Shown here one piece after another: positions 7,036-19,817 of a DNA stretch of 64,000 nt. This DNA is from Nakamurella sp. A5-74 (lineage in GTDB: Bacteria; Actinomycetota; Actinomycetes; Mycobacteriales; Nakamurellaceae), in contig NZ_CP159218.1 of assembly GCF_040438885.1 (NCBI RefSeq), positions 4,154,001 through 4,218,000 of the forward strand. The letters run 5' to 3'. The position numbers and the translations under genes are program-made. Every line of letters starts with the position of its first letter. Within the stretch, counting starts at the first letter, position 1. Under the pieces are notes generated by a model, which was not told the DNA's origin, did not search any database, and saw only the letters and a program-made list of their open reading frames with translations.

Positions 7036-7776
7036 TCAGTGCTCGAGCGTGACCAGGCCGTGGGCGATCGCCAGACGCGCAGCCTGCACCCTGTCCCGGG
7101 CGCCGACCTTCGCGAACAGGTTGTTGATGTGGGTCTTCACGGTCGAGTCGCTGACGAAGAGCCGCTGGGCGATCGCCCGGTTCGGGAGTCCCTCACCGAT
7201 GAGCGCCAGCACTTCGCGCTCCCGCGGCGTCAGGTCCGCCGAGAGCGGTTGCAACGCAACGCTTCCCGGATTCCCGGACGAATCCATCTGCGGGGCGGAT
7301 GCTGCCGGCGACACGGGTGGACCGGACCGGGAACGTCCGGCCGCAGCCAGCAGCCGCGCCTGGACCGCGGGATCGAGAACGGCCTGTCCGGCAGCGGCAC
7401 TGCGGATGGCTCGCAGGATGTCTGCCCGTCCGGCGTCCTTGGTCAGGTAGCCGCGCGCGCCCGCGCCGAGTGCAGTCAGGATCGATTCCTCGTCAGCGAA
7501 GGTGGTCAACACCACCACCGCGATCTCGTCGGCGGCCGCCAGGATCTGTCGAGTCGCCTCGGCGCCACCGATGCCCGGCATGTTGAGGTCCATCAGCACC
7601 ACGTCCGGGCGCTGCAGCGCCGCTGCCTCGACGGCGCGCTCGCCGTCCGCTGCCGTTCCACTCACCCTCAGGTCGGCCTGCAGGTCGATGACGATCGCCA
7701 TCGCCTCGCGGATCGCGGTCTGGTCGTCCACCACCAGCACCGAGATGTCCTGTCCCACAGCAGCATCCTCCGTCAT
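7036..7776 (-). CDS. NarL/LuxR-family response regulator
   Basis: A 246-residue two-domain regulator. The receiver domain (residues about 11-130) has the acidic pair at D17/D18, the phospho-acceptor D63 (VVLMDLNMPG), and the conserved T and K later (VVLTTF, GYLTKDAG). After a Pro/Ser-rich linker of about 45 residues, a LuxR-type helix-turn-helix (LTPREREVLALIGEG...STVKTHINNLFAK) occupies residues about 182-240. The ATG at 7776 overlaps the TGA of the kinase gene by 4 nt, which fixes the start and shows translational coupling. It is the last gene of the 9626-to-7036 operon. It probably binds the direct repeats at 6.14 and 9.72 kb. Confidence 0.92.
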   Translation of the reverse strand: MTEDAAVGQDISVLVVDDQTAIREAMAIVIDLQADLRVSGTAADGERAVEAAALQRPDVVLMDLNMPGIGGAEATRQILAAADEIAVVVLTTFADEESILTALGAGARGYLTKDAGRADILRAIRSAAAGQAVLDPAVQARLLAAAGRSRSGPPVSPAASAPQMDSSGNPGSVALQPLSADLTPREREVLALIGEGLPNRAIAQRLFVSDSTVKTHINNLFAKVGARDRVQAARLAIAHGLVTLEH

Positions 7777-9029
7777 CGACTGTCCTGTCCTGGGATCGGG
7801 GACGGCGAATCGCCGACCGGGACGGTCACTTCGACCCGCCATCCGTCCACCGCGTCGCCACCGGTGACCGGACCGGCTCGCACGGTGCCGTCCACCTCGC
7901 GGACCCGCTCGCGCATCCCGAGCAGCCCGAGCCCTGATCCACTGGTCAGCGACGGAACATGCTGCGGCGCTGCATGATTCGTCACCCGCAGGGTGACGGT
8001 GCCGGTCTTGGTGTCCGCACCGCCATCGGCATGGGCATCGGCCGACAGCGTTCCGAACACCAGCTCGATCTGCACGGCGGCCCCCGGCGCGTACTTGCGG
8101 GCATTGGTCAGCGACTCCTGCAAGGCACGGTGGACGGCATCCGCGGCTCGCGCTGCCACGACCTGCTCGCGGCCACGCACCTCGAGCTGTGTCCCTGCGG
8201 GCGCGGACGTCGCCACCGTGTCGCGCAGTCGGTCGCCGAGCGGACCGGAGTCCTCCCGCAGCGCCCGCACGGCGCTGCCGGCCTCGAGCATGCCTGCCCG
8301 GACCAGACCCTGTGCCGTGGCCACCGCACTTCGGGCTCTGTCGGTGGCGCCCGCTTCCAGCAGTGCGTCAACGGCTTCGAGCTGCAGGTTGACACCCGCG
8401 AGGGAGTGGGCGAGCACGTCGTGCAGCTCGCGGGCGATGCGGTTCCGCTCGGTGAGGGTGGCAGCATCGGCGGTCGCCTCCGCAGCCGCGGCAGCGCTCA
8501 CCGCCGCACTCTGCAGCGCCAGCGCGGTTTCGACCCGGTTGCGGTTGGCGACGCCGACGAAGACCGGGAGTCCGGTCAGCGCGCCGACGTACCAGGGAAC
8601 GTCGATCACCCCGGCGTGGTCGCCCACCAGCAGTGCCAGCGCCCCTGCCGCCGACATCGCCGCAGCCCACCCGACGCCTTCGTAGTCGGGGCGCCGGTAG
8701 CCGATGTGGCCGGCGAAGAAGTACCCGAACAGCGACGCGACGCCGTGCGGATCGACGCCCATCAGCCCGGCCGCAGCGAGCACCGAGGCGCCGCTGTTGA
8801 CGCGCAGGGCGACGACTGACAGCCGATCGTCCGGCACGATCCGCACCAGACTGAGGCCGACGTTGATCGCCAGCAGCACCCAGACCCACCACTGGTGCGG
8901 CGCATCCGCTCCGAGGAACTGCGTGAGGGTGAAGATTCCGATCGCCGCCGAGACGGCGAGTTGCCGCCACGGGTTGTCCCGTGGCGGCAGTCGCAGCGGT
9001 AACGGCGTGCTCACCGCATCATGATCCAC
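7773..9029 (-). CDS. DesK/NarX-type sensor histidine kinase
   Basis: A 418-residue kinase. The N-terminal part (residues about 22-165) has five or six hydrophobic segments and no large extracellular loop, suggesting it senses within the membrane. A HisKA_3 dimerisation domain carries the phospho-acceptor His at about 203 (RIARELHDVLAHSLAG). The C-terminal HATPase domain has an N-box (HRALQESLTNARKYAPG) and G-box (GSGLGLLGMRERV). It is the cognate partner of the overlapping response regulator. It starts 36 bp after the membrane protein gene at 9066, so the three form one operon. A GTG five codons downstream (9014) is an alternative start. Confidence 0.92.
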   Translation of the reverse strand: MDHDAVSTPLPLRLPPRDNPWRQLAVSAAIGIFTLTQFLGADAPHQWWVWVLLAINVGLSLVRIVPDDRLSVVALRVNSGASVLAAAGLMGVDPHGVASLFGYFFAGHIGYRRPDYEGVGWAAAMSAAGALALLVGDHAGVIDVPWYVGALTGLPVFVGVANRNRVETALALQSAAVSAAAAAEATADAATLTERNRIARELHDVLAHSLAGVNLQLEAVDALLEAGATDRARSAVATAQGLVRAGMLEAGSAVRALREDSGPLGDRLRDTVATSAPAGTQLEVRGREQVVAARAADAVHRALQESLTNARKYAPGAAVQIELVFGTLSADAHADGGADTKTGTVTLRVTNHAAPQHVPSLTSGSGLGLLGMRERVREVDGTVRAGPVTGGDAVDGWRVEVTVPVGDSPSPIPGQDSR

Positions 9030-9761: not shown

Positions 9762-9802
9762 CCCACCAATTGATTGCCTCGGGCAGAAGATTTTTGCGTT
9801 TC

Positions 9803-9816
9803 GAGTCGCGCGACTC
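9803..9816. promoter_or_regulatory. Perfect 14-bp palindrome upstream of the lysozyme gene
   Basis: GAGTCGCGCGACTC at 9803-9816 is self-complementary. It lies in the 315-bp divergent region between 9626 and 9942, about 125 bp upstream of the GH25 start codon. The binding protein is unknown. Its high G+C content makes chance occurrence possible. Confidence 0.35.
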
Positions 9817-9941
9817 CGGCCGCAGTCGTACGTTCGATCTGCAGTGACACCGCCGCAGCGCCCGCCGTCGGGGCGGACGCACCACCGGAGATCGCGCTAC
9901 CGGACCACCATCGGGTCGGCGCACGAAGGAGAAGGTTCGTC

Positions 9942-10778
9942 ATGAGGGCACTTCACAGAGCACGACTGATCGCCACCGTGGGAGCGGCTGTACTGACCGG
10001 ACTGTTGACAACAGCCGGCCAGGCCTCCGCAGCCGAGAACACCGCGACCCCCGGCCATCCCGCCGTCACCCAGCGCGGTGAGGCCTACGCGGGCTGGCAC
10101 GAAGCGACGGCGGCCAACGGCGCGACGCCAGACGGAGCACGCGTCCAGGACATCAACGCAGCTGCAAATCCGATCGGTATCGACGTGTCCAGCTACCAGG
10201 GCAACGTCGACTGGGCCTCCTACTGGAACCAGGGCTACCGGTTCGCGTACACCAAGGCGACCGAGGGTGACTACTACACCAGCGATTACTTCAGCCAGCA
10301 GTACACCGGGTCCTACAACCAGGGATTCATCCGCGGCGCGTACCACTTCGGGATCCCGAACGGATCGAGCGGTGCCAGCCAGGCCCAGTACTTCGTCAGT
10401 CACGGTGGCGGCTGGAGCGCCGACGGCAAGACGTTGCCCGGCATGCTCGACATGGAGTTCAACCCGTACGGCGCCACCTGCTACGGCCTGAGCCAGGCGG
10501 CGCTGACCAACTGGATCAAGGACTTCACCAACACCTATCGGTCCCTCACCGGACGGGACGCGGTGATCTACACGAACACCGGCTGGTGGAACCAGTGCGT
10601 CAACTCGTCAGCTTTCGGCGCGACCAACCCGTTGTGGGTGGCCAACTATTCGTCCTCGACACCACCGGTGCCGGCCGGCTGGGGTTACTACACCTTCCAC
10701 CAGTACAGCAGCGACCCGGTCGACCAGAACCGCTTCAACGGCACGATGGATCGTCTGATCGCCCTGGCCACCGGCTGA
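9942..10778 (+). CDS. Secreted GH25 family lysozyme (1,4-beta-N-acetylmuramidase)
   Basis: A 278-residue exported cell-wall hydrolase. Residues 1-31 are a Sec signal peptide (basic start, hydrophobic core, QASA cleavage near 30). The GH25 domain starts at about residue 78 (IGIDVSSYQG with D81). It shows YTKATEGDYYTS and has the catalytic D-x-E pair in MLDMEFN (D170, E172). The fold closes with YTFHQYSSD. Enzymes of this family cleave the MurNAc-GlcNAc bond of peptidoglycan. GAAGGAGAAGG upstream fixes the ATG at 9942, although the frame is open further upstream. Its role could be cell-wall remodelling or defence. It neighbours the two-component operon promoter. Confidence 0.93.
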   Translation: MRALHRARLIATVGAAVLTGLLTTAGQASAAENTATPGHPAVTQRGEAYAGWHEATAANGATPDGARVQDINAAANPIGIDVSSYQGNVDWASYWNQGYRFAYTKATEGDYYTSDYFSQQYTGSYNQGFIRGAYHFGIPNGSSGASQAQYFVSHGGGWSADGKTLPGMLDMEFNPYGATCYGLSQAALTNWIKDFTNTYRSLTGRDAVIYTNTGWWNQCVNSSAFGATNPLWVANYSSSTPPVPAGWGYYTFHQYSSDPVDQNRFNGTMDRLIALATG

Positions 10779-11630: not shown

Positions 11631-11696
11631 GCCCTCAGGTGGGCACAGCCATCATCACCGAGGGGCACGATCCACTTCTCAGGACGGACGTCAACA

Positions 11697-12893
11697 ATGC
11701 AAACGATCACCGGACGAACCCATCGCAGTCAGGTGCTGCTCTCCAAGGTTCCCGAGGTCACGCTGTTCTTCTGGATCATCAAGATCCTCTGCACCACCGT
11801 CGGTGAGACAGCAGCGGACTTCCTCAACGTGAACCTCGGGTTCGGCCTGGGACTGACATCGCTGGTCACCGGCGCCCTGTTGGCGCTGGTGCTGGTGGCG
11901 CAGTTCCGCGCCAACCGGTACATCCCGGCGTTGTACTGGCTCACGGTCGCGCTGATCAGCGTCTTCGGCACGCTGGTCACCGACAACCTCACCGACGTCG
12001 CGGGATTTCCGCTGGAGGCCAGCACGCTGATCTTCGCGGCACTGCTCGCCACTACCTTCCTGGTCTGGTATGTGAGCGAGCGCACCCTGTCCATCCACTC
12101 CATCCTGACCCGCCGACGGGAGGCGTACTACTGGCTGACGATCCTGTTCACCTTCGCACTCGGTACCGCCGCGGGTGACCTGATGGCCGAGGGTCTCGGC
12201 CTGGGATACCTGACCACCGGACTGATCGTCGCCGGCGTCGTCGCGCTCTCGGTGATCGCCTGGAAACTGGGAGCCAATCCGATCCTCACGTTCTGGATCG
12301 CGTACATCCTGACCCGCCCGCTGGGCGCTTCGATCGGCGACTACCTGACCCAGCCTGGCGACCATGGAGGCCTGGGGCTCGGCGCGACAGTCACCAGCAT
12401 CATCTTCGGCGTCGGGATCGTCGGCATCGTGCTCTACCTGGCCATCAGCAAGAAAGACGTCATCGATCGTCCGGATGGGCCGGCACAGCATGCTCCGCGG
12501 CACGGCATCCTGCAGACGGCGATCGCCGTCGTGCTGTTCGCCACCGCCGGCAGTGTCGGCTACGCAACCAGGTCGGCTGCCCTGGCGAGCCCACCGGCAG
12601 CTGGAACCGTCACTGCTGCAGCACCTCTCGGTGATCTGACCCAGTTCCGCAGCATCGGCCAGGACTCTCTCGCGCTGCTGCAGAAGGGCGACCAGGCCGG
12701 CGCCACCACCCGGATCGACGATCTCGAATTCGCCTGGGACCAGGCCCAGGCCCGACTGAAGGCGCTCGACGGGGCCGCCTGGACGAAGGTCGACGACACG
12801 ATCGACGTCGTCCTGCGGGAGCTGCGCGCCACCAACCCGGACGTGACCCGCGAGACCGCTGCACTGAAGGACTTCATCGCCGCGACCAGCTGA
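11697..12893 (+). CDS. COG4705-family multi-pass membrane protein
   Basis: A 398-residue protein. The first 285 residues hold about eight hydrophobic helices in a repeated pattern. Each repeat has a charged D or E inside a helix (KVPEVTLFFWIIKILCTTVGE at the start, later VTDNLTD, TAAGDLMAEG, ASIGDYL), which is the hallmark of the COG4705 uncharacterised membrane family. Unusually, after a further helix at about 285-300, a soluble C-terminal tail of roughly 100 residues follows (DLTQFRSIGQDSLALLQKGD ... DDTIDVVLRELR). It looks helical and resembles small periplasmic domains in cation-related proteins. The ATG at 11697 follows AGGACGG. Transport or metal sensing is possible but unproven. Confidence 0.8.
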   Translation: MQTITGRTHRSQVLLSKVPEVTLFFWIIKILCTTVGETAADFLNVNLGFGLGLTSLVTGALLALVLVAQFRANRYIPALYWLTVALISVFGTLVTDNLTDVAGFPLEASTLIFAALLATTFLVWYVSERTLSIHSILTRRREAYYWLTILFTFALGTAAGDLMAEGLGLGYLTTGLIVAGVVALSVIAWKLGANPILTFWIAYILTRPLGASIGDYLTQPGDHGGLGLGATVTSIIFGVGIVGIVLYLAISKKDVIDRPDGPAQHAPRHGILQTAIAVVLFATAGSVGYATRSAALASPPAAGTVTAAAPLGDLTQFRSIGQDSLALLQKGDQAGATTRIDDLEFAWDQAQARLKALDGAAWTKVDDTIDVVLRELRATNPDVTRETAALKDFIAATS

Positions 12894-12929
12894 CCGGGTC
12901 CTACCTCGCGCAGCCCGTGACCCTCCGGT

Positions 12930-14243
12930 TCACCGGATCGGGGGTGCGGGCGGCGTCAGCACGATGGTGAAGGTGGTCGGCTCGGTCCGGCTCAGGAGCA
13001 GTCGACCACCGACCGCCTCCACCAACTCACGACTGACGGACAGCCCGATGCCGCTCCCGTCCGCCCCGGACACACCCCGCTCGAACGCGTCCTCAGGCGC
13101 CAGCACCATCGCACCCTCGTCGGCGATGTCGATCAGCACCGCGGCGTCACCGAGTTCGCGCCCGGTGACGGTGAGGGTGCCGCGACCGTGTCGGAGGCTG
13201 TTGTCGATCAGCGCGTCGAGGACCTGGCGGAGCACCTGGCCGGGCAGCAGCGTTCCGGCGACGGAGGTCGCGACGTCGATCCGGATGATGCGACCGTGCG
13301 CTGCGAACCGTCCGTGCCAGTGCTTCTCGCGTCGATCCAACAGATCCGCCAACGGTTCACTCGGCCCGGAGGACCAGTGCTGCTCCCGGCCGCCGGCCAA
13401 CCGGAGGACGTCATCGAGACGACGGTGCAGCTCTTCCACCTGACGGCGGCTGTCCCGCAGGTGTTCCCTGAGCACTTCCGAGCCGGACTCAGGGTCGTCC
13501 AGCGCGCCGTCCAACCCCAGTTGCAAACCGGCCAGTGGGGTTCGGAGTTGATGGGAGGCGTTGAGCGTGAACTGCCTACCGCGATCGAGCAGCTCCGACA
13601 ACCGGTCGACCATGAAGTTCTGGGTGGCGGCGACCTGCGCGATCTCGCGGATCCTGCTCGTCCTCGCGCGCGCTGTGAGGTCGCCGTCCGCGATGCGGAG
13701 CGATACCGCCGACAAGTCCTCCAACGGCTCGCTGAGCAGCCGGGCCTGCCGTCGAGCGACGAGCAGTGTCGCCGTCAACGCAAGCAGCACCAGGATCAGC
13801 TCTGCGATCCAGGTCAGGATGATCCGCCGCCACACCGTCGCGACCGGAACCGAGGCTCGCACTGCGGCGATCACCGTCTCGTTCGCCGAGACCGGCACCA
13901 CGACGACCACTTGCCCGTCGAATCTCCCGTCGACCGCAGACCCCGCCCGAACACCGACCCCCAGTGGTTCTTCCAGAGTCGCAGGACCGCTGCCGACGAC
14001 GCGCCGCCCTTCCTGGTCGTAGACCGCGACGTTCGTGTCAGCCTCGAGCTGGGCGAGTTCCACCGGGTCTCCCGCCGCGAAGGAGGGCCCCACCCGGGTC
14101 ACCGCGCTGAGTGCTTCACGTTCCAGTTCGCGCTGCTCATCGTCGAAGAACCAGAACCGGGCGACGACACCCAGCGGCACCGCAAACGTCAGCAGCGCCA
14201 GGGCAACGACGATCAGGACGGTACGGATCACGAGCCGGCGCAT
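12930..14243 (-). CDS. HisKA-type sensor histidine kinase (probable partner of the 19071 regulator)
   Basis: A 437-residue classical kinase. TM1 is at residues about 7-28, an extracytoplasmic sensor at about 29-135, TM2 at about 141-163 and HAMP at about 164-215. HisKA carries the phospho-acceptor H231 in NASHQLRTPLAG. The HATPase domain has an N-box (DALIDNSLRHG) and G-box (DGSGIGLSVSRELV). It is divergent from the ABC exporter operon beginning at 14366, whose last gene is an OmpR-type regulator without a kinase beside it, so the pair is probably split across the operon (inference). An inverted repeat, GGAGGT-N8-ACCTCC, lies just upstream. Confidence 0.9.
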   Translation of the reverse strand: MRRLVIRTVLIVVALALLTFAVPLGVVARFWFFDDEQRELEREALSAVTRVGPSFAAGDPVELAQLEADTNVAVYDQEGRRVVGSGPATLEEPLGVGVRAGSAVDGRFDGQVVVVVPVSANETVIAAVRASVPVATVWRRIILTWIAELILVLLALTATLLVARRQARLLSEPLEDLSAVSLRIADGDLTARARTSRIREIAQVAATQNFMVDRLSELLDRGRQFTLNASHQLRTPLAGLQLGLDGALDDPESGSEVLREHLRDSRRQVEELHRRLDDVLRLAGGREQHWSSGPSEPLADLLDRREKHWHGRFAAHGRIIRIDVATSVAGTLLPGQVLRQVLDALIDNSLRHGRGTLTVTGRELGDAAVLIDIADEGAMVLAPEDAFERGVSGADGSGIGLSVSRELVEAVGGRLLLSRTEPTTFTIVLTPPAPPIR

Positions 14244-14267
14244 CGCCCCATCATGGTCGCCGTTGCG

Positions 14268-14287
14268 GGAGGTTCGGGGCGACCTCC
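14268..14287. promoter_or_regulatory. Inverted repeat GGAGGT-N8-ACCTCC between kinase and exporter operon
   Basis: GGAGGT (14268-14273) and ACCTCC (14282-14287) pair perfectly with an 8-bp spacer in the 122-bp divergent gap. It is a candidate site for the OmpR-type regulator at 19071. However, OmpR-type proteins more often use direct repeats, so the assignment is weak. Confidence 0.3.
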
Positions 14288-14365
14288 GATCACGGATGCA
14301 GGATTTTGCCGACCGCTTACCTTCACCTCGCCGTTGCCTTGCCGGCCGGTTCCTACCGTCGAGGA

Positions 14366-15010
14366 ATGGACACGAACCCCCTTCCCTCTGCGCGCAGGTC
14401 GACCGGCGCCGTCCTGGTCGGTGCGGCAGCTCTGGTGCTCAGCCTGGCCGCGTGCAGTGCACCCGGAACGCCCGCGACCGGTGCACCCTCCGGCCAGATC
14501 TCCTCCTCTGCGCCGACGTCAGTACCGCTGACCGAATCGAACCCGCCGGGAGACATCCCCGACAACCAGGCCTTCGTGCCTTTCACCGACCCCTCCGGTG
14601 CCGTGACCGTGAAGGTGCCCGAGGGGTGGGCGCGGACCGCCGGCGGCGATGGCGGGACGACATTCACCGACAAGTTGAACAGCATCGCGCTCCAGGTCGC
14701 TGCTGCGCCGTCCGGACTCTCACCGGCCCAGGTGCGCAGCACCGTCGTCGCGAAGCTGACATCGAAGGTGCCGGCGTTCGCCCTCGGCGATGTGCAGCAG
14801 ATCACCCGTTCCGGTTCCCCGGCGGTTCTGGTGACCTACCAGGGCGACTCCGCCCAGGACCCGGTGACCGGCAAGGTCATTCGCGACGCGTTCGAGCTGT
14901 ACGTGTTCTTCCACAACGGCACTCAGGTCTTGCTGACCCTCACCGGGCCGGCGAATGCCGACAACGTCGATCCGTGGCGGATCGTCTCCGACTCGATCAC
15001 CTGGCCATGA
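14366..15010 (+). CDS. Putative lipoprotein, first gene of the ABC exporter operon
   Basis: A 214-residue protein with a lipoprotein signal: a basic start, a hydrophobic run, and a lipobox LSLAAC with the acylated Cys at residue 30. A Ser/Thr/Pro-rich linker follows. The folded part (FTDPSGAVTVKVPEGWARTAG ... GSPAVLVTYQGDSAQDPVTGK ... VFFHNGTQVLLTL) resembles LpqN-like or PsbP-like actinobacterial lipoproteins. The stop overlaps the ATG of the first ATPase by 4 nt. It could be the extracytoplasmic partner of the exporter. GAGGA lies immediately before the ATG. Confidence 0.8.
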   Translation: MDTNPLPSARRSTGAVLVGAAALVLSLAACSAPGTPATGAPSGQISSSAPTSVPLTESNPPGDIPDNQAFVPFTDPSGAVTVKVPEGWARTAGGDGGTTFTDKLNSIALQVAAAPSGLSPAQVRSTVVAKLTSKVPAFALGDVQQITRSGSPAVLVTYQGDSAQDPVTGKVIRDAFELYVFFHNGTQVLLTLTGPANADNVDPWRIVSDSITWP

Positions 15011-15675
15011 CTGCCTCAGCGCTCCGAGCCGAGGACCTGTACCGCTTCTTCCGCACCGGTGGTGAGGAGATCCTGGCGCTGCGCGGAGTGTCGCTGGCAG
15101 TCGAATCCGGGGAGACCGTCGTCGTCGCGGGGCCGTCCGGAAGCGGCAAGTCAACACTGCTGAGCTGTCTGGCCGGTCTGGACGAACCTGCGGGCGGAAG
15201 GGTGACCGTGGGCGGGGAGCAGCTCAGTCACCGTCCCGAAGCCGTCCGGGCACGAGTACGCGGCCGCCGTATCGGCGTGTTGCTGCAGTCGCGCAACTTG
15301 ATCACGCACCTCAGTGTGCAGAACAACATCCGCATCGCCCAGACCGCCGGCAGGCGTCAGCGGAACCGGCCCACCGTCGGCCTGCTGCTGGACCAAGTAG
15401 GGCTGACGGCCCACCGGCACTCCCGACCAGCACAGCTGTCCGGCGGCGAACTCGCCCGAGCCGGGCTCGCCGTGGCCCTGGCGAACGCACCGGACATCGT
15501 GCTGGCCGACGAACCCACCGGTGAGCTCGACGGCCGCACCGAGCAGCACATCCTCACGCTGCTCCGCGATCAGGCAGGTCGGGGTGCCGCACTGCTCATC
15601 GTCACCCACAGCGCTGCGACAGTCGCCGCCGCAGATCGGGTCATCACCCTGACTGACGGACGGATCACCACATGA
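15007..15675 (+). CDS. ABC transporter ATP-binding protein (MacB/LolD type), subunit 1
   Basis: A 222-residue cytoplasmic ATPase. Walker A GPSGSGKST is at residues 42-50, the Q-loop at about 94 (LLQSRN), the signature LSGGE at 144-148, Walker B IVLADEPTGEL at about 163-173 and the switch His in IVTHS. The signature's last residue is E rather than the usual Q. It overlaps the lipoprotein gene and the second ATPase gene by 4 nt each (ATGA). Two different ATPases before one large permease suggest a heterodimeric nucleotide-binding pair (inference). Confidence 0.92.
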   Translation: MTASALRAEDLYRFFRTGGEEILALRGVSLAVESGETVVVAGPSGSGKSTLLSCLAGLDEPAGGRVTVGGEQLSHRPEAVRARVRGRRIGVLLQSRNLITHLSVQNNIRIAQTAGRRQRNRPTVGLLLDQVGLTAHRHSRPAQLSGGELARAGLAVALANAPDIVLADEPTGELDGRTEQHILTLLRDQAGRGAALLIVTHSAATVAAADRVITLTDGRITT

Positions 15676-16361
15676 ACGACGCCGAGGTACTCGTCCGCTG
15701 CGACGATGTCGGACACACCTTCGGCTCGGGGCCAGCTGCGATCGTCGCCGTGCACGGCGCCACCTGCGTGGTCCGGGACAAGGACCGGATCGCCCTGGTC
15801 GGGCCGTCGGGCTCCGGAAAATCCACCTTGCTGCACCTCATGGCTGGTCTGGAAGAACCCACCAGCGGCCGGCTCAGTTGGCCGGCGCTGAGCTCGGACT
15901 ACTACGACCGCGCAGCCAGCATCGGAGTCGTCTTCCAGAGCCCCAGCCTGATCCCTGATCTGGATGTCTTCGAGAACGTCGAACTGCCGTTGCTGATCGC
16001 GCCCTCCCCCGGCGACCGCAGCTCCGAGCGAACAGCCGTGCTCATCAAGGACGCCCTGGCGAACGTGGGTGTCGAGGACCTCATCACCCGGCTGCCGGAA
16101 GAGCTCTCCGGGGGTCAGGCCCAACGCGTCGCCGTCGCCCGGGTGCTGGCCCAGGCACCCCGACTCATTCTCGCCGACGAACCGACGGGCCAACTGGACA
16201 GCCGCACGGCGCACCACGTCATCGACGTGCTGCTCAGCGCTGCCCGTCGATTGGACGCCGCCCTGGTGGTCGCCACCCACGACCCGACCGTCGCCGGCCG
16301 CCTGGACACCACGTGGAGCATGCACGAAGGTCGGCTGGCTCCCCGGGGTGACACCCGATGA
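15672..16361 (+). CDS. ABC transporter ATP-binding protein (MacB/LolD type), subunit 2
   Basis: A 229-residue ATPase. Walker A GPSGSGKST is at 44-52, the Q-loop at about 89 (VFQSPSLIP), the signature LSGGQ at 145-149 and Walker B LILADEPTGQLD follows. The switch His lies in VATHD. It differs clearly from subunit 1 outside the motifs. The ATG overlaps the stop of subunit 1 by 4 nt, and its own TGA overlaps the permease ATG by 4 nt, so the operon is tightly coupled. Confidence 0.92.
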   Translation: MNDAEVLVRCDDVGHTFGSGPAAIVAVHGATCVVRDKDRIALVGPSGSGKSTLLHLMAGLEEPTSGRLSWPALSSDYYDRAASIGVVFQSPSLIPDLDVFENVELPLLIAPSPGDRSSERTAVLIKDALANVGVEDLITRLPEELSGGQAQRVAVARVLAQAPRLILADEPTGQLDSRTAHHVIDVLLSAARRLDAALVVATHDPTVAGRLDTTWSMHEGRLAPRGDTR

Positions 16362-19015
16362 TCGGCACCTGGACAGCGGGCCTGATCCGGCACCGGGCTG
16401 GTCGGCTCGGCGCAACCGCCGCCGGTATCGCCCTCGCGGTCGGGCTGGTGGCATCGCTGGGCACCTTCCTCACTGCGTCCGAGAACACGATGACCCGCCG
16501 AGCCGTCAGCTCGGTGATCGTCCCCTGGCAGATAGAAGTCCAACGAGGCGCCGATGCAGCGGCCATGGGCACCCTGGTGCGGGCCGAGCCCGGGGTGGCG
16601 AAGGTCGAGGCGGTCCAGTTCGCGTCGACGTCCGGATTCGAATCGACGGGCAGCGGAACCACCCAGACAACCGGTCCCGGTGTCGTGCTGGGCATCAGCC
16701 CGACCTACCGATCCACGTTCCCCGATGAGTTCCGGACACTGACGGGTGCGACCACCGGCGCCCTGCTCGCCCAACAGACAGCAGCCAATCTGCACGCCGG
16801 CCCCGGGGACACCATCAGGGTGCGGCTCGCCGGCGGAGCGTGGCGTGCCGTGACCATCGCCGGGATCATCGATCTGCCCCAGGCAGATTCACTGTTCCAG
16901 CGGATCGGCGCACCACCTCAGTCGCAACCCTCCGCCCCCCCGGACAATGTGCTCGTCCTCCCCCAGAACTCGTTGAACTCGCTCCTGGGAGGCACAGCGG
17001 GCGCGAGCGTCGGAACGACCGAACAGTTCCACGTCACGCTGGACCCGCTGCAGGCCCACGACCCAGCGGCGGCGTACACCGCGACGGTCACCGCGGCCCA
17101 CCATCTCGAAGCTGCCTCCACCGGCGGAACCCGGGTGGGAAACAACGTCGGAGCTGCCCTTGACGCTGCCCGGAAGGACGCCCGGTACGCCGAGCTCCTG
17201 TTCCTGTTCCTCGGACTCCCGGGAGTCATCCTCGCCGCTTTGATCACGGCCGGCCTGGTCGGAGCCGGAGCGAACCGTCGGCGTGAAGAACAGGCACTCC
17301 TGCGGCTCAGGGGGCTCAGGCCTCGCGACGTCGCCACTCTGGCAGCCGTCGAGGCAGCGATCGTGGGCGTCGTCGGGGGACTCCTCGGGCTGGCCCTGGC
17401 CTCGGTGGCCGGGAGCTGGGCGTTCAGTTCGCTGTCGGTCGGATCCAGCGGATTGCCGACGGTGGGGTGGGCAGTGGCCGCCGTCGCCGCCGGGCTCGTC
17501 GTCACGGCGATCACCGTGCTGCTGCCGGCGACCGCAGATCTTCGCGGCCGAACTGTTGTCGACACACGTCGGCAGCACCAGAGGAGACGGGGAAGCTGGT
17601 GGTCGAAGATCGGGCTGGACGTGCTGCTGATCGTCAGCGCACTGCTGATCTTCCGCGCCGCGGCATCGGACAACTACTCGCTGGTCCTGGCTCCGGAGGG
17701 GGTGGCCTCGATCTCCGTGTCCTACTGGGCATTTCTCGGACCGGCACTGCTGTGGTTGGGAACGTCGCTGCTGCTGTGGCGCCTGACGAATCTGCTGCTG
17801 CGCGCCGCCCGCCGCCCGCTGACCGCGATCTTCCGCCCCGTCGCCGGGGCGCTCGCACCCGTCGGTGCAGCGGGCATGGCCCGACGCCGTCGTCCGCTGG
17901 CCACCGCTGTCGTCCTGCTGGCGCTCGCGGTGTCGTTCGCCATCTCCACCGCCACCTTCACTGCGACCTACCAGCAGCAGGCCGAGGTCGATGCCGTCCT
18001 CACCAACGGCGCCGATGTCACCGTCACCCAACCGCCGGGAACCATCAGCCCACCGTCCGCCGGTGATCGGCTGTCATCCATCCGTGGGGTGAAACACGTC
18101 GAACCACTCCAACATCGCTTTGCCTACGTCGGATCCGACCTCCAGGACCTCTACGGAGTCCGTCCGGACACCATCACCGACGCCACCGCACTGCAGGACG
18201 CCTACTTCGTCGGCGGGTCGGCACGGCAGATGATGGGCATCCTGCAGACGAAACCGGATTCGATCCTCGTCAGCGACGAAACCGTGAAGGACTTCCAGCT
18301 CGCCCCCGGGGACTTGGTGAACCTGCGCCTGCCGGACAGCCGCACACACGCCCTGATCACCGTTCCGTTCCACTACGCCGGAATCGTGACCGAGTTCCCC
18401 ACGGCTCCCAAGGACAGCTTCTTCGTCGCCAACGCCGCCTACATCGCCACCGCCACCGGGTCCGACGCCGTCGGATCGTTCCTGCTGGACACGAGCGGCG
18501 CGGATCCCGCCGCGGTCGCCGCCGACATCCGTACCGCCGTCGGGACATCGGCGTCCGTCACCGACATCACCCAGACCCGACTGCAGGTCGGCTCCAGCCT
18601 GACTTCGGTCAACCTGACCGGCCTCACCCAGTTGGAACTGGCATTCGCCATCCTGCTGGCGGCCGCAGCCGGAGCACTGGTGATGTGGATCGGACTGGCA
18701 GAAAGGCGGCGGAGCCGGGCCATCATGACGGTGATCGGTGCCCGCCGCCGGCAACTGACCGGTCTGGTGATCAGCGAAGCGATACCCATCGCCGCACTCG
18801 GCACGTTCGGTGGGCTGGTGATCTCCTGGGCGCTCTCCCAGATGCTGGTGAAGGTCCTCACCGGGGTTTTCGACCCGCCCCCGTCCTCGATCGCGGTTCC
18901 GTGGACATATGTGGCGCTGGTGCTGGTCTCGACCGTGCTCACGCTCGGTCTCGCAGCAGTCATCAGCACTCGACGCTCGAACCGCCCGCCGATCGAAGAA
19001 CTGCGTGACCTGTGA
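16358..19015 (+). CDS. FtsX/MacB-type ABC transporter permease (two FtsX domains)
   Basis: An 885-residue permease. A first TM helix near residues 20-42 is followed by an extracytoplasmic domain to about 275. Then come the three helices of the first FtsX domain (about 280-395) and two helices in the middle (about 415-475). A second N-terminal helix near 520-540 leads to another extracytoplasmic domain, and a final FtsX helix triplet lies at about 755-875. This duplicated layout is typical of the large MacB-like permeases of Gram-positive bacteria, which move lipoproteins or hydrophobic or antimicrobial compounds out of the membrane. The substrate is unknown. It overlaps the second ATPase by 4 nt. 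Confidence 0.9.
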   Translation: MIGTWTAGLIRHRAGRLGATAAGIALAVGLVASLGTFLTASENTMTRRAVSSVIVPWQIEVQRGADAAAMGTLVRAEPGVAKVEAVQFASTSGFESTGSGTTQTTGPGVVLGISPTYRSTFPDEFRTLTGATTGALLAQQTAANLHAGPGDTIRVRLAGGAWRAVTIAGIIDLPQADSLFQRIGAPPQSQPSAPPDNVLVLPQNSLNSLLGGTAGASVGTTEQFHVTLDPLQAHDPAAAYTATVTAAHHLEAASTGGTRVGNNVGAALDAARKDARYAELLFLFLGLPGVILAALITAGLVGAGANRRREEQALLRLRGLRPRDVATLAAVEAAIVGVVGGLLGLALASVAGSWAFSSLSVGSSGLPTVGWAVAAVAAGLVVTAITVLLPATADLRGRTVVDTRRQHQRRRGSWWSKIGLDVLLIVSALLIFRAAASDNYSLVLAPEGVASISVSYWAFLGPALLWLGTSLLLWRLTNLLLRAARRPLTAIFRPVAGALAPVGAAGMARRRRPLATAVVLLALAVSFAISTATFTATYQQQAEVDAVLTNGADVTVTQPPGTISPPSAGDRLSSIRGVKHVEPLQHRFAYVGSDLQDLYGVRPDTITDATALQDAYFVGGSARQMMGILQTKPDSILVSDETVKDFQLAPGDLVNLRLPDSRTHALITVPFHYAGIVTEFPTAPKDSFFVANAAYIATATGSDAVGSFLLDTSGADPAAVAADIRTAVGTSASVTDITQTRLQVGSSLTSVNLTGLTQLELAFAILLAAAAGALVMWIGLAERRRSRAIMTVIGARRRQLTGLVISEAIPIAALGTFGGLVISWALSQMLVKVLTGVFDPPPSSIAVPWTYVALVLVSTVLTLGLAAVISTRRSNRPPIEELRDL

Positions 19016-19070
19016 AACGGCCCACTCGTGCACGAGAGCGCGAACACCGTCCGGGGGTACGGTCACGGCC

Positions 19071-19817
19071 ATGACCAAGCACCCCGGTCACGCGGCCGGC
19101 CGCATCCTGGTGGTGGAGGACGACGACGCCATCGGTCGGCACCTGCAGTCCGGGCTGACGACCAACGGCTACGCGGTCTCCTGGAAGCGCGGCGGACGGG
19201 CCGCCATCGCAGCAGCCGATGCCGTTCCCCCCGACATCGTCCTGTTGGACCTCGGCCTGCCCGACATCGACGGCATCGAAGTCGCTCGGAAACTGCGATC
19301 CGACCACCCCGACGTGCTGATCGTCATCCTGACAGCGCGCAGTGACGACATCGACGTCGTCGTCGGACTCGACGCCGGGGCCGACGACTATCTGGTGAAG
19401 CCGTTCACGATGGCCGTTCTGCTCGCGCGATTGCGCGCACATCGACGCCGACCGGCGGGGAGCGGCGCGGATGTCCGGACCCTGACCGTCGCCGGCCTGG
19501 AGATCGACATCGCAGCTCGAGAATGCCGGTTGGCCGGAGCACCAGTGGCGTTGAGGCTGAAGGAGTTCGAGTTGATCGTCGCACTGGCCCGCAAGGCCGG
19601 CGAGGTCATCAGTCGCGAAGATCTGATGCGGCAGGTCTGGGACGAGAACTGGTTCGGATCGACCAAAGTCCTGGACGTCACCATCGCCGCGCTCCGCAGG
19701 CAGCTCGCGAACGCGGCCGCCCGACAGCACACACCGCATCCCCCGACGATCACCACCTTCCGAGGAGCCGGTTACCGTCTCGACCGACCGAACTGCGTCA
19801 CATCGACAACTCCCTGA
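19071..19817 (+). CDS. OmpR/PhoB-family response regulator at the end of the ABC operon
   Basis: A 248-residue regulator. The receiver has the acidic triplet at E16-D19, phospho-acceptor D60 (DIVLLDLGLPD), T at about 86 (VILTARS) and K at about 108 (DDYLVKPF). The winged-helix DNA-binding domain occupies residues about 130-238 (LRLKEFELIVALARKAGEV and a C-terminal TTFRGAGYRL). It starts 55 bp after the permease. No kinase follows, and the kinase at 12930-14243 on the opposite side of the operon is the likely partner. The ATG at 19071 matches the family N-terminus; the frame is open further up inside the permease gene. Confidence 0.93.
   Translation: MTKHPGHAAGRILVVEDDDAIGRHLQSGLTTNGYAVSWKRGGRAAIAAADAVPPDIVLLDLGLPDIDGIEVARKLRSDHPDVLIVILTARSDDIDVVVGLDAGADDYLVKPFTMAVLLARLRAHRRRPAGSGADVRTLTVAGLEIDIAARECRLAGAPVALRLKEFELIVALARKAGEVISREDLMRQVWDENWFGSTKVLDVTIAALRRQLANAAARQHTPHPPTITTFRGAGYRLDRPNCVTSTTP

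Follow-up and report, generated by a model that had tools for sequence, protein, structure and literature searches.

Why does a single FtsX-type permease come with two different ATPase genes, and what could such a machine do? This question is raised by an operon at positions 12930-19817 of a 64,000-nucleotide stretch of the Nakamurella sp. A5-74 genome (contig NZ_CP159218.1, positions 4,154,001 to 4,218,000; in our numbering G000:C1:4154001-4218000; the genome is one contig of 4.75 Mb), which we call the window and whose own positions are used throughout. The operon is genuine, and the bacterial membrane machine that it encodes is conserved. We are highly confident that its architecture and regulation are as described here; the joint reading, in which a heteromeric type VII ATP-binding cassette (ABC) machine would present a membrane lipid to a PsbP-fold partner under stress, stands at about even chances. 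The genes and putative sites are as follows.

11697-12893 (+), DUF347 membrane protein (Pfam), a recurring neighbour outside the core, convergent with the kinase gene
12930-14243 (-), sensor histidine kinase with HAMP, HisKA and HATPase_c domains (Pfam), divergent from the core operon
14304-14321 (+), putative operator block TTTTGCCGACCGCTTACC (sequence reading, motif scoring)
14354-14359 (+), -10-like hexamer TACCGT, which ends 6 nt before the lipoprotein ATG
14366-15010 (+), lipoprotein with the lipobox LAAC and a predicted PsbP/Mog1-like fold (fold model), the proposed extracytoplasmic partner
15007-15675 (+), ATPase 1 (A1), LSGGE type (Pfam ABC_tran, PF00005)
15672-16361 (+), ATPase 2 (A2), LSGGQ type (Pfam ABC_tran, PF00005)
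16358-19015 (+), permease of 885 amino acids (Pfam FtsX twice, PF02687; MacB_PCD twice, PF12704)
19071-19817 (+), OmpR-family response regulator (Pfam Response_reg/Trans_reg_C)

In the window each core junction (lipoprotein/A1, A1/A2 and A2/permease) has a 4-nt overlap. The divergent kinase and lipoprotein genes start at 14243 and 14366, respectively, leaving 122 bp between them, and the regulator ATG (19071, the start chosen here) lies 55 nt past the permease stop; thus neither gene of the two-component system (TCS) overlaps the core. A preliminary description, made from the sequence of this stretch, had proposed the same layout, with kinase and regulator flanking the overlapping core genes, and all genes were found where it had placed them; its 885-residue FtsX-type permease after two non-identical ATPases (36% identical) and its LSGGE motif in the first subunit were seen as well. 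The start codon of the DUF347 gene was picked by eye, and this gene was searched against Pfam as 11694-12893.

The two-ATPase arrangement was followed in a set of 66 loci, made without L046-L076 and L083-L105 (L090 and L104 being kept); the rows left out are places fetched again with more flanking DNA, weak matches and broken pieces such as L096, L097 and L105. The set takes in three distant homologues (L082, L124 and L125), and its partner start codons were allowed up to 40 codons further upstream. In 60 of the 66 loci the permease gene is immediately preceded by exactly two ATPase genes. Among the other six, five (L024, L036, L040, L042 and L045) are on contigs that start inside the permease, and L038 is a remnant: its permease lacks the N-terminal half, its regulator is spread over two frames, and a look at 6 kb of upstream sequence revealed no ATPase. 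Two distinct ATPases, the gene pattern of a heteromeric pair, stand together wherever the upstream DNA and the permease start are intact (60 of 60 loci). The pairing of both with one permease, seen at first in the window, extends to its relatives, and a look for an ATPase belonging to another permease found none.

The two ATPases form separate groups: in an unrooted quick tree, the A1 (n=60) and A2 (n=60) sequences are on opposite sides of one branch (SH-aLRT, the approximate likelihood-ratio test, 88). The signature of A1 is LSGGE in 56 sequences, LAGGE in three and LSGGQ in one, while that of A2 is LSGGQ in 42, ISGGQ in ten, LSGGM in five, LSRGM in two and VSGGQ in one. All 60 sequences of each group retain the Walker A Lys, the Walker B Asp-Glu and the H-loop His, and no listed variant lacks the Q-loop Gln; those listed cover 50/60 and 58/60 rows of the two sets. 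As these catalytic motifs are intact in both A1 and A2, both sites look able to work, unlike those of the common type of heterodimer with one degenerate site. An asymmetric A1-A2 dimer on the permease is strongly suggested.

The permease was predicted to have a type VII fold. Its model, built on 30 sequences (predicted local distance difference test, pLDDT, 80.9), shows ten long helices, arranged 4+2+4, and two periplasmic domains, after transmembrane helices (TM) 1 and 7, the count of ten being our reading of the helix list of the model. The best Foldseek match was YbbP (9ge6, E 1.3e-18), which was also first in VIA (Z 21.9, root-mean-square deviation, rmsd, 8.1 over 547 residues), with BceB (7tch) nearly tied (Z 20.7, rmsd 6.9 over 571) and MacB structures among the matches of both programs. 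All top matches belong to the type VII / MacB-FtsX superfamily, and the FtsX, MacB_PCD and ABC_tran domains are present. The family names LolD, MacB, ADOP and the like were considered, and since the NCBIfam matches are far below the cut-offs, none was applied; the annotation in the records is only FtsX-like or ABC transporter permease. Among 55 sequences the two coupling-helix regions are unlike each other and each is conserved (RRRrEQALLR.RG versus ERRRtfAi...LGA), as expected if they meet different ATPases; the coupling helices are placed at about residues 303-322 and 785-800.

What stands outside the membrane? The lipoprotein gene is present in 55 of the 60 two-ATPase loci, and no such gene was found in the three distant homologues or at L090 and L104, which have too little upstream DNA. 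Its model (pLDDT 83.5) has a predicted PsbP/Mog1/CyanoP/LpqN fold by Foldseek and VIA, and VIA aligned it with 2xb3 (Z 15.7, 140 residues aligned) and with LpqN (6e5d, Z 11.0, rmsd 3.4 over 130). The window lipoprotein had no Pfam or NCBIfam match at the limits used. PsbP Pfam matches were obtained for 11 of 30 members of the partner family at E<=1 (best 0.0017), none of them above the curated cut-off, and no LpqN Pfam match was found among these 30; the family assignment is settled by the predicted fold only. LolA, MacA and TesA were not among the 50 VIA matches listed for the partner, an absence which is no test. The invariant partner residues include no evident Cys/His metal site.

A survey of 65 partner proteins with a loose pattern found a lipobox in 54 of 55 Actinomycetota proteins (L112 has LGSAC instead) and in none of ten from diderms (Pseudomonadota, Cyanobacteriota and Deinococcota). 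Most diderm partners among those listed start with what reads as a Sec signal, and in diderms the partner is apparently soluble. Seven of the ten are alphaproteobacterial (six from Hyphomicrobiales plasmids and one from a Rhodobacteraceae metagenome-assembled genome), so the ten do not count as ten independent cases. A similar pattern of anchoring by envelope type is known for substrate-binding proteins. As the anchoring follows the envelope type, the lipid is suggested merely to keep the partner close to the membrane, and a Lol-like reading with the lipid anchor as cargo was set aside, given the lack of a lipobox in the ten diderm proteins. The extracytoplasmic partner role proposed for the lipoprotein at the outset is favored by its place in the core, its predicted PsbP fold and this anchoring.

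TCS genes like those of the window were counted within 3 kb of the core in loci with at least 1.4 kb of upstream and 1 kb of downstream DNA. Of 47 such loci, 32 have both genes, none the kinase only, three the regulator only and 12 neither (Fisher test, 9e-9). The places and strands of the kinase/regulator genes relative to the core vary: up(-)/down(-) in 12 loci, up(-)/down(+), as in the window, in 11, up(-)/up(+) in four, up(-)/up(-) and up(+)/up(-) in two each, and down(+)/down(+) in one. The two genes move around the core yet stay paired, which makes it very probable that kinase and regulator belong together. A kinase paired elsewhere was looked for and not found, and co-presence and the operator tie the pair to the operon, in line with the preliminary description; the split that it had emphasized is real in the window and is not the general layout, being found in just 11 of 32 loci. 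The kinase has, besides HAMP, about 110 residues between two hydrophobic stretches.

The 31 kinase-partner intergenic regions that were read share the block TTTTGCCGnCCnCTwACC, along with additional half-sites and a -10 element resembling TAGCGT. In the window, the half-sites TTGCC, TTACC, TCGCC and TTGCC at 14306, 14317, 14328 and 14339 keep an 11-bp register, and the position of TACCGT makes a leaderless lipoprotein start possible. A putative operator scoring at least 11/15 was found in 33 of 40 regulator-bearing loci and in none of 11 regulator-lacking ones (Fisher test, 7e-7), while about 4% of shuffled regions reach this score. Outside the 31 regions, the scores were 14 (L014, L017), 13 (L078), 12 (L018, L019, L026), 11 (L043, L107), 10 (L025) and 9 (L028); L013 (14), L034 (9) and L035 (8) are in neither regulator class. 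The regulator fragment of L018 counts as absent at the 140-bit limit of the co-presence test and as present at the 80-bit limit of the operator test. In 74 loci, 26 of the 28 sites scoring at least 13 are in the promoter of the partner gene. The window genome has one perfect site, one with two mismatches and none with one, and the reversed control pattern gave three. The regulator would act at the operon promoter via this putative operator, and the regulon is predicted to be essentially one promoter.

Some sites and regulatory genes lie apart from this pattern. At L078, an off-core, perfect 15/15 operator precedes a polysaccharide deacetylase gene (13983-14699, -), after which come a short fragment resembling a kinase, then the regulator and the core genes; this may be a rearranged operon whose kinase has decayed. 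At L106, a weaker operator-like site (13/15) precedes the gene of a small predicted membrane protein (12447-12959, -), which we take to be DUF1707-like. L106 was scored as lacking both TCS genes; a kinase fragment is 5.4 kb away at the edge of the stretch and, together with the operator-like site elsewhere, suggests that the regulator may lie outside the stretch. The window also contains a second TCS (7036-9029, -), a LuxR-type (GerE) regulator with a HisKA_3 kinase, about 4 kb from the kinase of the operon.

How widely is the operon distributed? The scan of genome contigs gave 37 loci. In whole-genome searches, a match with E<=1e-40 turned up for 35 of the 397 genomes from the order and for 18 of the 396 from the phylum. 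Among the 17 genomes of the genus, that of the window included, a strong match was found only in the window genome and in G007, the remaining ones having a weak match or none. The ATPases of these two genomes sit in different parts of the ATPase tree, which together with the patchy distribution suggests that the operon spread by horizontal transfer. A tblastn match was found in 29 plasmid records, 11 of them typed as conjugative: 15 from Rhizobium, three each from Rhodococcus and Mesorhizobium, two each from Deinococcus and Paraburkholderia, and one each from Mycolicibacterium, Agrobacterium, Chroococcidiopsis and Bradyrhizobium. The core order is more than chance, because it recurs across the loci of relatives and in annotated plasmid records from Hyphomicrobiales, Chroococcidiopsis, Deinococcus, Rhodococcus and Mycolicibacterium, a few of which have one core gene split or unannotated.

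In three genomes the permease reads in two frames or as two overlapping genes: G007 (L081, with a switch near residue 447), R. opacus B4 (L136) and G541:C137 (with a frame change near residue 324). These may be frameshifts, sequencing errors or true splits.

Clusters of open reading frames (ORFs) around 67 loci include DUF347 at 23 loci (the window among them), DedA-like genes at 15, UppP/BacA-like at six, PAP2-like at five, ZIP-like at four and deacetylase-like at three, alongside TCS genes and shadow frames. All these names except DUF347 are sequence readings backed by plasmid annotations. In 25 operon-bearing genomes, DUF347 was found within 10 kb of the permease in seven (0.14 expected, P 5e-11), PAP2 in at least five (0.74 expected, P 7e-4), VTT in four (0.47 expected, P 1e-3) and BacA in three (0.21 expected, P 1e-3), while a control family, beta-lactamase, was found in at least two (0.64 expected, P 0.13) and is also above expectation. 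The neighbours were read by eye from tables, those of PAP2 and beta-lactamase among the matches listed, with totals per genome; the number of DUF347 genes was taken as the matches divided by four, as each gene has four repeats. The presence of DedA, PAP2 and UppP genes nearby suggests a link to phospholipids or to the undecaprenyl phosphate cycle. In the part of one report that is available to us, DUF347 is proposed as a possible metal transporter, and three UppP and DUF347 operons are among the lead-up-regulated genes of an organism that is not made fully clear there (PMC4531530). In G040, matches to DUF347, BacA, VTT and PAP2 are within 9 kb on contig 13 and the operon is on contig 5, so the neighbours can form a module which the ABC system joins.

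Several single features of the surroundings were also seen. The DUF347 proteins of the window and L106 have in common a C-terminal extension (LGDLxxFRxIxQDxLxLL ... VLRELRAxNPD), Pfam naming the repeats only, while at L126 a separate protein of 129 amino acids (sub-threshold WXG100 match) is encoded beside DUF347. In the Hyphomicrobiales plasmid loci L126, L132, L133, L134, L137 and L138, a DUF1344 gene lies downstream of the permease, and that of L126 codes for a protein with a sub-threshold match to CusF. At L009 the DedA-like gene reads as fused to PAP2. A GH25 (lysozyme-like) gene is near the operon of the window (9774-10778, +).

What, then, may the machine do? The composition and conservation of the operon, its intact motifs, the ATPase groups, the TCS co-presence, the operator and the neighbour enrichment were read from sequence and point to the following scheme. 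The sensor kinase would react to an envelope or metal insult, and the regulator would switch on the operon from the operator between the kinase and lipoprotein genes. One ten-helix, internally duplicated type VII permease would be driven by its two dedicated ATPases, presumably one per half. ATP binding would close both halves and, by analogy with YbbAP-TesA and LolCDE, lift a membrane amphiphile from the outer leaflet, which would be presented to the PsbP-fold partner held outside the membrane. We infer the heterodimer, the direction of transport, the substrate and the inducing signal; metal or envelope stress is the most likely setting. With DedA/VTT, PAP2, BacA/UppP and DUF347 as neighbours, undecaprenyl-(pyro)phosphate or another membrane lipid would be the likeliest substrate, and we put a function on a lipid or lipid carrier forward tentatively, as a possibility with somewhat less than even chances. 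Of the lipid, peptide or antibiotic exporter that had been suggested for this layout, the lipid part is favored by the fold and the neighbours, while nothing was found for peptides or antibiotics among neighbours that are not all annotated. A more far-reaching proposal, rather unlikely to hold in full, is that of a horizontally mobile type VII subclass with an own ATPase for each permease half, which, controlled by a dedicated sensor of metal or envelope stress, would lift undecaprenyl-(pyro)phosphate or a similar lipid to a carrier of the PsbP fold and, together with DedA flippases, PAP2/UppP and DUF347, would form a new lipid-carrier rescue or metal-precipitation module.

A number of observations weigh against this interpretation. 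The core is found without TCS genes in 12 of 47 loci, the operator was missed in seven of 40 regulator-bearing loci, and no site scoring at least 13 was found in 13 plasmid loci; moreover, finding the operator in regulator-bearing promoters is partly circular, as it had been derived from these. DUF347 is near only 23 of 67 loci; DedA, PAP2 and BacA occur more rarely still, and none of them goes beyond moderate significance. The P values of the neighbour tests are rough, since genes are assumed to be placed at random and the genomes, mostly drafts, to be independent of each other. DedA, PAP2 and UppP were picked after the plasmid loci L126-L131 had been viewed and DUF347 after the clustering of the 67 loci, among which are loci of the 25 genomes tested, so the test does not stand wholly apart from the discovery. 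The permease model comes from 30 sequences, with the rmsd of the YbbP alignment and the near tie of BceB given above. Mirror-tree distance matrices all correlate at 0.81-0.93, and the partial correlations (A1-C 0.41, A1-N 0.20, A2-N 0.39, A2-C 0.36) are too weak to assign either ATPase to a permease half, an assignment that was therefore dropped. The claims on substrate, DNA binding and expression come from sequence and models.

The near tie with BceB (7tch, Z 20.7 versus 21.9 for YbbP) bears on a BceAB-like antimicrobial defence, in which the permease would recognise a peptide antibiotic or its lipid target, the machine would free the target and the TCS would report it. UppP and PAP2, whose genes are neighbours here, act on the lipid bound by bacitracin, and the TCS is dedicated. 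However, the kinase with its HAMP domain and extracytoplasmic stretch is unlike BceS, the permease has two large periplasmic domains and not one, there are two ATPases and a PsbP-fold partner, and the core lacks a TCS in 12 of 47 loci, which makes such a defence quite improbable. The neighbours would also suit a metal resistance exporter that exports or sequesters a toxic metal or its complex with the partner as metal binder: ZIP-like genes are found at 4 of 67 loci, and DUF1344 with its sub-threshold CusF match is downstream in rhizobial loci. Yet the invariant residues of the partner include no evident Cys/His metal site and 44 of 67 loci have no DUF347 nearby; to our knowledge, no type VII system exports bare metal ions, HrtBA heme export being the nearest case. 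Even with the DUF347 neighbours and the lead link reported in the available part of PMC4531530, we consider a metal exporter very improbable.

The MacB_PCD domains and the MacB structures among the fold matches would fit a MacAB-like exporter of a small molecule, siderophore or peptide, with the partner as adaptor. MacA is, however, a membrane-fusion protein and MacB a homodimer with a fused ATPase, whereas the partner here is predicted to be PsbP-like, and the recurring neighbours that were identified, others being unannotated, are lipid phosphatases, DedA and DUF347 and not biosynthesis genes; we see little chance for such an exporter. As small is the probability of an FtsEX-like signalling device, which would transport nothing and use ATP-driven movement to toggle the partner or a cell-wall enzyme. 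It shares the superfamily, and the deacetylase under the perfect operator in L078 and the GH25 gene of the window speak for it, but these two links are single cases (the deacetylase-like ORF cluster is found at 3 of 67 loci), and the two full periplasmic domains are as in YbbP/Lol. We thus return to the heteromeric machine that would present a lipid to its PsbP-fold partner.

All parts of this machine come from known superfamilies. The combination of two obligate ATPases, a fused type VII permease, a PsbP-fold partner, and a TCS with an operator seems undescribed; in our searches, which covered open-access papers in PMC, we noticed no description of the operon. If true, two obligate unlike ATPases on a fused type VII permease would allow a test of broken symmetry in a mechanotransmission engine. 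A partner with a lipid anchor in Actinomycetota and, apparently, a soluble form in diderms offers a handle on its role, and the link to DUF347, undecaprenyl-phosphate phosphatase and DedA provides a concrete hypothesis for a family annotated just as FtsX-like or ABC permease, whose members sit on both chromosomes and plasmids, in actinobacteria, rhizobia, a cyanobacterium and Deinococcus.

With regard to regulation, the window resembles CopRS/CusRS, where, in the part of the source available to us, an OmpR-family regulator acts at a single intergenic site between divergent genes (PMC3140484); in the window the corresponding link is a putative one, and CopRS/CusRS control copper genes and not a type VII ABC operon. 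The partner resembles LpqN, a lipoprotein with a PsbP-like fold (matched here by 6e5d), for which a review notes an interaction with the lipid exporter MmpL3 and work using a lipid mimic (PMC7458404). MmpL3, however, is of the RND (resistance-nodulation-division) family and not an ABC protein, and the window partner has no LpqN Pfam match. LolCDE extracts its cargo from the outer leaflet and passes it to a periplasmic acceptor. Two unlike permease halves, a periplasmic acceptor and outer-leaflet extraction, the last as proposed here, would be common to both systems, but LolCDE has two permease genes and a LolD homodimer, whereas the window has a fused permease, two ATPases and another acceptor fold. 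BceAB-BceRS also combines a ten-helix type VII permease, with a structural score near that of YbbP, and a dedicated TCS. It has one ATPase gene, one large extracellular domain and a kinase without an extracytoplasmic sensor domain, in contrast to the two ATPases, the two periplasmic domains and the kinase with HAMP and the stretch of about 110 residues in the window. The closest likeness by fold is to YbbAP-TesA of Escherichia coli, described in the accessible part of its report as a complex of 2:1:1 stoichiometry, with one coupling helix between TM2 and TM3 and another between TM8 and TM9, and thought to extract hydrophobic compounds (PMC12646458). As far as that part goes, both are type VII systems with one ten-helix pseudosymmetric permease, two periplasmic domains and a separate extracytoplasmic partner, here predicted by the model. 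TesA is a hydrolase, whereas the window partner is predicted to be a PsbP-fold protein, and the window system has in addition a TCS, a putative operator and DUF347, DedA, PAP2 and BacA neighbours. Finally, YbbA is one ATPase used in two copies, whereas here two ATPase genes of separate groups were found at 60 of 60 loci whose upstream DNA and permease start are intact.

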